A stretch of 35,551 nucleotides of DNA, from assembly GCA_937923465.1 (NCBI GenBank), contig CALDUB010000104.1, positions 1 through 35,551 on the forward strand, in the 5' to 3' direction. Source of the stretch: an uncultured Saprospiraceae bacterium (GTDB lineage: Bacteria > Bacteroidota > Bacteroidia > Chitinophagales > Saprospiraceae). Position numbers and translations under genes: made by a program. The notes under the pieces were generated by a model. That model made no database searches, had not been told where the DNA came from, and worked only from the letters and a program-made list of their open reading frames with translations. The first letter of the stretch is position 1. The number at the start of each line of letters is the position of its first letter. Positions 3,845 to 16,533 of this stretch are shown one piece after another.

Positions 3845-3884
3845 TTTATTTTAAAAGCGTCCAAATGGTCGCTTTTAAAATAAA
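3845..3884. repeat. Long palindrome upstream of KilA-N gene 1, matching the palindrome inside that gene
   Basis: TTTATTTTAAAAGCG-TCCAAATGGT-CGCTTTTAAAATAAA: 15-bp perfect arms plus partly palindromic core. The in-gene counterpart is 4131-4163. Confidence 0.85.
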
Positions 3885-3929: not shown

Positions 3930-4488
3930 ATGAAGACTATGAAAAAGCAGCAAATTGAAGTTTTAGGTATTTCTGTCAAAATGAAGACTGTGGGCGAAGA
4001 TGATTACATCAGCCTCACAGATATTGCTAAAAGTGAAAGCGGACAACCCGCCAAAGACCTGATACGCAACTGGCTTAAAAACCAACGAACACTACTCTTT
4101 TTAACGGCTTGGGAGAAGGCGCACAACCCTGATTTTAAAAGCGACCAAATGGACGCTTTTAGATTAGAAGCCACTAAACCGCGTTTTAATCCTTCCATAA
4201 AAAGCTATACTGAAATGACAAATGGTCGGTATTATTAGCCGCGCAGGACGATACGGTGCGGGCACTTTCGCACATGTAGAAATTGCTCTTTCCTTTGCTT
4301 ATTGGCTCGAACCGGAGTTCCAAGTTTACTTTCTGAAAGAGTTTAATCGACTAAAGAAAGAAGAGGCTACTTTAATTGAAAATGGTCGCAAATGGGCTTT
4401 TGAGAAGTTGTTGCGCGGTGCAGAAGAATTTACGGCGGTAGCGAAATTTGGCTTGGAGGAAGTTCTGCGAAAGGATGAAGAAGAGTAG
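3930..4488 (+). pseudogene. KilA-N domain protein, split by a frameshift near 4213-4235
   Basis: ORF 3930-4238 (N-terminal half, ...KSYTEMTN) and ORF 4222-4488 (VGIISRAGRYGAGTFAHVEIALSFAYWLEPEFQVYFLKEFNRLKKEE) together align along the intact KilA-N protein at 15786-16358. The halves are in different frames. Confidence 0.8.
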
Positions 4489-12659: not shown

Positions 12660-15647
<2,988 letters not shown>

Positions 15648-15649
15648 TT

Positions 15650-15680
15650 AAAATTTTAAATCCGTCCATTTGGACGGAAT
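15650..15680. repeat. Intergenic palindrome just upstream of the lacZ-like start, matching the palindrome inside KilA-N gene 2
   Basis: TCCGTCCATTTGGACGGA (15661-15678) with 5' flank AATTTTAAA. The KilA-N gene 2 sense strand reads AATTTTAAATCCGTCCAAATGGACGGAATTAG. Confidence 0.85.
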
Positions 15681-15785
15681 AAGAATAAGAGGTAAGAGTA
15701 ATTTCAACGAAAAAGGCTAATGTAGAGAATTTTTGACATCCATTGCATAATCTCTAAGCATCAGAATATCCTGATGTTTAAAAAT

Positions 15786-16358
15786 TTATTCTTCCTCCTG
15801 GACGCGCTTATTCTCGGGTAATTGCCCAGGCATAGTATCTAACATAATTCGCGCATTGTCCACGTAATCTGTAATTTTAGAAATATGCCAAGTTCGATTA
15901 GCTTCTAAACGTTCGAATTCCGATTTTTTCAAACGTTGAAATTCTTTAATCATGTAAACTTGGAAAGGAGGGGACAACCAATATGCAAAATTGAGCGCAA
16001 TATCTTGATGTGCATAAGTACCGCCGCCTTTCCCACGTTTGGAGCGCAAACCTATGGCAGAAGTCTTTTCAACAATTGCTTTTACACTAATATTTTGACT
16101 GCGCTCCGTAGCCTGTAATCTAATTCCGTCCATTTGGACGGATTTAAAATTAGGGTTAGATATTTCTTCCCAAGTTTGAATAAATTGTAGAGTCGCACCA
16201 TTCCGCAGCCAGCTTCTAATCAACTCATCAGTTCGAGTTTCTGATTGTTTGGCAATATCATTTAACGAGATATAATTGTCTTCTCCTATCTCTTCAAAAG
16301 AAATTGCGACGCCTTTTATATTTACAGTTTTCTTATTCTTTGACATTTGCTTTCTCAT
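15786..16358 (-). CDS. KilA-N domain-containing protein
   Basis: DNYISLNDIAK...LIRSWLRNGATLQFIQTWEEISNPNFKSVQMDGIRLQA...KTSAIGLRSKRGKGGGTYAHQDIALNFAYWLSPPFQVYMIKEFQRLK. Confidence 0.9.
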   Translation of the reverse strand: MRKQMSKNKKTVNIKGVAISFEEIGEDNYISLNDIAKQSETRTDELIRSWLRNGATLQFIQTWEEISNPNFKSVQMDGIRLQATERSQNISVKAIVEKTSAIGLRSKRGKGGGTYAHQDIALNFAYWLSPPFQVYMIKEFQRLKKSEFERLEANRTWHISKITDYVDNARIMLDTMPGQLPENKRVQEEE

Positions 16359-16363
16359 TTTTC

Positions 16364-16387
16364 AATTAGGTCTGCACAGACCTAATT
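16364..16387. promoter_or_regulatory. Palindrome immediately upstream of KilA-N gene 2
   Basis: AATTAGGTCTG-CA-CAGACCTAATT: perfect 11-bp arms with a 2-nt centre, 5 nt before the start codon. Confidence 0.65.
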
Positions 16388-16397
16388 AAAATTTTAC

Positions 16398-16473
16398 GTT
16401 CTTTGACAAATCCCCCCACGTTTGCGGTACAAGCAGTGATTGTCCCGTGCAACAGGGGGATTTGTCAAAGAAC
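16398..16473. repeat. Inverted-repeat element GTTCTTTGACAAATCCCCC...GGGGGATTTGTCAAAGAAC
   Basis: Perfect 19-bp arms around a 38-nt loop. A related element lies at 29731-29832. Confidence 0.8.
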
Positions 16474-16533
16474 CAAATTTTATTAGACTCATTTTCCGTA
16501 AAGGTAAATGATTTTCAAGAAATAATATTCAAC

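Follow-up and report, generated by a model that had tools for sequence, protein, structure and literature searches.

Why does a gene for a DNA-binding protein carry, within its own codons, a palindrome that is found again just outside the gene? This question is raised by a 35,551-nucleotide contig of an uncultured Saprospiraceae bacterium (CALDUB010000104.1 of assembly GCA_937923465.1, here called the window), which encodes two KilA-N genes, gene 1 and gene 2 (Table 1). A sequence-only reading of the window had quoted a palindrome inside gene 2 with an intergenic partner, and both are present. The 18-bp core TCCGTCCATTTGGACGGA is found on the plus strand at 15661-15678 and again at 16125-16142. 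The two copies are identical, and the AA versus TT difference first reported between them is an artefact of comparing opposite strands. Pattern searches, from which all site counts in the source genome derive, found TNCGTCCANNTGGACGNA at exactly these two places in the 5.75-Mb genome and the reversed control pattern at none. Gene 1 is paired in the same way with its own arms, as had been proposed. We suggest that the protein of the host gene probably recognizes such a palindrome as its DNA target, most likely for self-limitation.

An internal palindrome at fixed codons of the KilA-N domain

Gene 2 matches the KilA-N profile PF04383 (E 4.6e-20, 71.9 bits, above the Pfam cut-off of 23.8) and the PADLOC family PDC-S22 (E 6.5e-55, residues 1-159, 161 of 281 profile positions). 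The profile search returned 12 PF04383 matches in the source genome, representing 11 genes. Eight of these 11 genes, namely genes 1 and 2 and six further paralogues with other arms, carry a palindrome at one common codon position, with arms unlike between genes. Two of the three paralogues that lack it (C7 and C198) have a palindrome directly 5' of the gene instead. A relaxed pattern found 11 exact places in the source genome and a sister genome (G001), nearly all of them within a KilA-N gene or adjoining its start. Gene 1 itself is frameshifted, yet both its internal and its upstream palindromes are retained; the sister genome encodes an intact relative of it (L048).

To look across the family, KilA-N loci were gathered via conserved peptides away from the palindrome site, plus the Pfam profile. 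We found that 235 of 255 KilA-N genes (92%), from many phyla and from phages, score at least 7 for a palindrome at the same codons. A quirk of one lineage is ruled out by this presence in many phyla. Palindromicity along the domain forms a single spike at model column 70, the E of FNxxEFxxIK, with a mean of 10.85 against about 1.6 elsewhere, and the centre lies exactly at the E/F codon boundary in 183 of 189 genes. An even, fixed centre of this kind fits a dimer site. The consensus form is TTT AAW nnn nnS GAA TTC Snn nnn WTT AAA, with its centre between GAA and TTC, and it can be perfect over up to 32 bp. Synonymous recodings fall far short of it: 175 of 213 sites score above all 100 of their synonymous recodings, whose mean is 2.36 against 11.07 observed. 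Together with the single palindromic column, this places the pattern far above chance.

Within this shared frame the arms are diverse, with 98 distinct arm sequences in the family. Variable base pairs are complementary at frequencies of 0.75-0.93, as opposed to 0.26-0.53 from the marginals, and at d=7 all four pair types occur; overall complementarity is 0.866, compared with 0.425 +/- 0.014 after shuffling. The palindrome is maintained by paired changes. Because the inner base pairs covary, amino acids at the palindrome-coded positions covary as well (e.g. N..I versus K..F).

A mobile palindromic element, or a cruciform for DNA mobility, could in principle have settled in these genes. Rickettsia palindromic elements (RPEs) are insertions of a shared repeat inside coding sequence, and an RPE- or REP-like origin would suit both the very similar KilA-N genes that we found across phyla and the free copies in phage contigs. 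The KilA-N palindromes likewise lie within coding sequence, about 200 bp inside the gene, but alignment with the rest of the family reveals no insertion, as the sequence-only reading had recognized for this conserved domain position, and the arms are gene-specific rather than one repeat. Sites are also rare genome-wide, and a mobile element would leave the link between helix and arms described below unexplained. We regard an element of this kind as very improbable, and its insertion was rejected as a candidate on the lack both of an insertion against homologues and of a single shared repeat.

The arms follow the recognition helix

In identity-matched pairs, with the commonest arm family omitted, shared arms go with shared residues at columns 40 (0.51) and 43 (0.52); the same comparison gives a difference of 0.27 at columns 38-39 and at most 0.27 elsewhere. 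Columns 40 and 43 lie outside the palindrome-coded columns 63-78. In an AlphaFold2 model of one family member (L158; mean pLDDT 93.2), the arm-tracking columns are part of a helix spanning 33-45, and the palindrome encodes a helix at 66-75. The windows that best predict the arms begin at columns 36-39, recovering 3.55 of 6 bases against a baseline of 2.22. Among 83 representatives below 70% identity, mutual information runs in register along helix and arm (44-d4, 43-d5/6, 40-d5/6/7, 39-d7, 38-d6/8). Particular residues go with particular bases: K43 with GGTC or GGTG in 15 of 18 cases, Q43 with CATC in 8 of 17, and FFIS with TTATGGC. When arms are ranked from helix residues using partners at most 62% identical, the true arms have a median rank of 0.13, as against 0.44 for permuted helices. 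The rule extends to L335, which has no internal palindrome and whose promoter site fits its own helix (rank 4 of 84). Hybrid half-sites were seen in L285, L286 and L288. What the sequences show directly is the palindrome, how it covaries and how it is linked to the recognition helix.

The palindrome accompanies the gene from phylum to phylum and in phages and satellites, so the encoded protein would most simply be its reader, and we think it very likely, judging from these sequence patterns, that a KilA-N protein binds the palindrome of its own gene. The protein, probably as a dimer, would contact the two half-sites via the start of the second helix of its helix-turn-helix. The family has TTTTAA/TTAAAA at the outside and GAATTC at the centre in common, and the six inner bases of each arm would serve as a paralogue-specific address. 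A fold search of the L158 model against the PDB gave no match with E below 0.001 (best DdrC at 2.3e-3, then the Mbp1 DNA-binding domain at 0.49), and for this reason the contact residues were not placed on a solved complex. The top match, Deinococcus DdrC, is a DNA-damage DNA-binding dimer, at a TM score of about 0.3.

A hairpin in the mRNA as the selected feature was weighed against this protein target. Arms of up to 16 bp could fold, and those of P1 kilA leave a 4-base loop. However, mismatches on the sense strand of 130 distinct sites comprise 40 A.C and 12 G.T (G.U in RNA), the opposite of what RNA pairing tolerates, an asymmetry to which codon constraint may contribute. Copies, moreover, have a common arm sequence, which goes beyond mere pairing, and the arms follow the recognition helix. 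It is hardly probable that a hairpin is what selection maintains. The sense-strand form was rejected on the mismatch types; an antisense RNA is still conceivable.

Copies beside the gene and free in phages

Around KilA-N genes there is a second, smaller palindrome peak 20-75 bp 5' of the start codon, where most flank sites lie. At 9 of 14 comparable flank sites the arms equal those of the gene itself; across 2000 permutations the mean was 1.5 and the maximum 6. Internal arms do, then, predict nearby sites better than shuffled pairings, and the claim that arms co-vary with their gene stands. What had been taken as a pairing of gene and site is in general an internal palindrome, shared by KilA-N, ORF6N and Bro-N genes, with flank copies the fewer.

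The downstream copy of gene 2 lies about 108 bp 3' of the gene 2 stop and, as originally reported, 17-34 bp 5' of the ATG of a lacZ-like gene (15644). This position suggested an operator by which gene 2 controls lacZ. The copy is equally one just past a KilA-N stop, as at other loci (L184, L304, L333, L344), cognate copies elsewhere being about 12-200 bp beyond the stop, and nothing that we saw connects lacZ with the KilA-N family. The lacZ-like open reading frame (ORF) is probably only a neighbour of gene 2. With most flank sites 5' of KilA-N starts, the specific lacZ link finds no support, and an operator for lacZ is improbable.

The skeleton TTTTAA-N6-CGAATTCG-N6-TTAAAA was found in 67 viral contigs, and the N5 spacing control had no viral match. 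In 249 genomes the N6 skeleton has 15 sites, all in 11 genomes carrying KilA-N. Of 86 counted matches, 55 lie within KilA-N ORFs, and the remainder are mostly palindromic though the pattern did not require symmetry. Free palindromes occur in 27 viral records that have no PF04383 match, and of 21 distinct free sites, 17 have an arm that also belongs to a known KilA-N gene. Phage contigs that lack KilA-N hold free palindromes at L262:9856-9887 and further viral loci, and some of these appear to lie inside coding sequence.

The palindrome extends to ORF6N, Bro-N and kilA genes

ORF6N genes, originally intended as a negative control, came out positive, with a spike of 8.95 against a median of 1.66, and Bro-N genes reach 7.06 and 4.84 at two adjacent positions. 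TetR genes, also a negative control, are flat, with no column above 2.8 and no gene at 10 or more. In P1 kilA and most of the relatives examined, the best palindrome occupies a single loop ahead of GRGGGT, and its arms differ; the exceptions are Emek, where it is weak, IME1369_02, where it is second best, and L459, where none was seen. No strong palindrome was found in HK97 roi, in which we saw no KilA-N domain. Escherichia coli K-12 dinD (L558:3261-4085) has the palindrome TGACCATTTCGAGGAGATCCTCGATATGGTCA at residue 63 with a score of 11.5, the next best in the gene being 5.0. This SOS gene has, besides, a LexA-box-like palindrome upstream.

KilA-N, Bro-N and ORF6N are domains of a described network of phage and satellite proteins (PMC10111431). 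The genes studied here are members of those domain families, but embedded palindromes were not found described in the literature searched. That search, with subscription papers mostly outside it, returned no report of these palindromes, and the larger pattern appears to be undescribed in the searchable literature. A wider reading, which we hold to be slightly less likely than not, is that KilA-N, ORF6N and Bro-N mobile regulator or defence genes carry their own protein's site in the codons of the domain. Gene, target and specificity would then form one moving unit with a recognition code legible from sequence, and free phage copies would be stolen passes. Genes of these families abound in phages, satellites and bacteria, and few of their targets are known. 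If the reading is true, many specificities could be read from sequence and tested together, including those of E. coli K-12 dinD and phage P1 kilA. It would also offer a way in which candidate defence proteins might avoid their own DNA, or hold themselves in check once horizontally transferred.

Possible uses: self-limitation or self-immunity

As the most likely use of its target, the bound protein would stop transcription of its own gene, either as a roadblock or through a DNA loop to a copy in the promoter; extra copies may stand there or just 3' of the gene. A site that is part of the coding sequence for the DNA-binding domain moves with the gene regardless of promoter. That feedback is the main role we advance tentatively. 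An operator inside coding sequence has a precedent in lacO2, within lacZ. Like the KilA-N palindromes, lacO2-type operators are palindromic protein-binding sites in codons, where looping or roadblock is possible; unlike them, they are single cases outside the regulator's own domain codons and are not known to covary across families.

Several points weigh against self-limitation through an own-gene target. Classical operators are located in promoters, and promoter palindromes of any kind number only about 27 among the 255 genes, with flank copies in the minority. At L310, L071, L112 and L091 the promoter palindrome carries the arms of another lineage and the internal site is the one that suits the helix, a sequence pattern that suggests cross-control between family members. 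The helix rule performs modestly for L016, L020, L371 and L379 and misses the arms of gene 2 itself (rank 65 of 84), whose centre CCAAATGG is unlike the bulk of the training set. The genes are also related, and with relatedness only partly controlled the shuffles overstate significance.

Self-immunity offers another use for the same site. The family would consist of phage-defence proteins, and a bound palindrome would exempt the DNA that bears the gene, as well as phages with free palindromes, as aba does for BstA. BstA of prophage BTP1 has a KilA-N-like domain, and the DNA element aba in its own gene silences its product in a variant-specific manner (Owen et al. 2021; PMC8585504). Aba is known in one family and comprises 63 bp that span the start codon and include direct repeats of CCCGCC (PMC8585504). 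In both systems, the gene of a KilA-N-like protein holds a short DNA element; that of the KilA-N genes, whose arms differ from gene to gene and follow the protein, may likewise act as DNA and in a variant-specific way. The KilA-N site, unlike aba, is a palindrome about 200 bp inside the gene, with no start-codon overlap and no terminal CCCGCC repeats.

The PADLOC defence candidates PDC-S22, S05, S13 and S04 include these families, with profile matches down to E 1.9e-133 (L158, PDC-S22), which also speaks for defence. They are candidates only, with no self-encoded site found described, and in one strain, deleting a PDC-S04 gene showed no effect on defence (PMC12409345). The free viral sites with KilA-N arms suit self-immunity, and so do cognate copies 3' of the stop (L304, L333, L344 and gene 2), which promoter control explains poorly; but the viral records may be fragments, and many of the sampled genes are chromosomal. 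Feedback and self-immunity share one first step, self-recognition. Promoter copies favour feedback; self-immunity, which we consider on balance unlikely as the principal use, is favoured by copies 3' of the gene and by the free ones in phages. Self-limitation is the use we prefer.

Features of the window and side observations

Table 1. Features of the window (positions in the 35,551-nucleotide stretch)
Feature	Position	Strand	Remarks
KilA-N gene 1, frameshifted	3930..4488	+	ORFs 3930-4238 and 4222-4488
Gene 1 internal palindrome	4136..4161	.	TAAAAGCGACCAAATGGACGCTTTTA
Gene 1 upstream palindrome	3845..3884	.	Arms same as internal; 46 bp 5' of ATG
KilA-N gene 2	15786..16358	-	ORF list; 190-aa ORF, 186 aa from Met at 16346
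Gene 2 internal palindrome	16121..16146	.	Within FKSVQMDGIR codons; 18-bp core 16125-16142
Downstream copy	15659..15680	.	Core same as gene 2 internal, 15661-15678
Palindrome with different arms	16360..16391	.	TTAGGTCTG; just 5' of gene 2 start codon
Recognition-helix codons	16212..16235	-	RTDELIRS, model columns 37-44; positions tracking arms in KilA-N family
lacZ-like (beta-galactosidase) ORF	12660..15644	-	994 aa; ORF list; identity from sequence-only reading and inspection

Two further repeats lie close to KilA-N genes. An inverted repeat 5' of gene 2 (16403-16477, GTTCTTTGACAAATCCCCC / GGGGGATTTGTCAAAGAAC) may be a genome repeat, because hairpins resembling it recur in L016 near 6112 and 9267. 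Two long, near-identical hairpins 3' of the C480 KilA-N gene (L019:2166-2232 and 2894-2950) are possibly the ends of a small mobile element.
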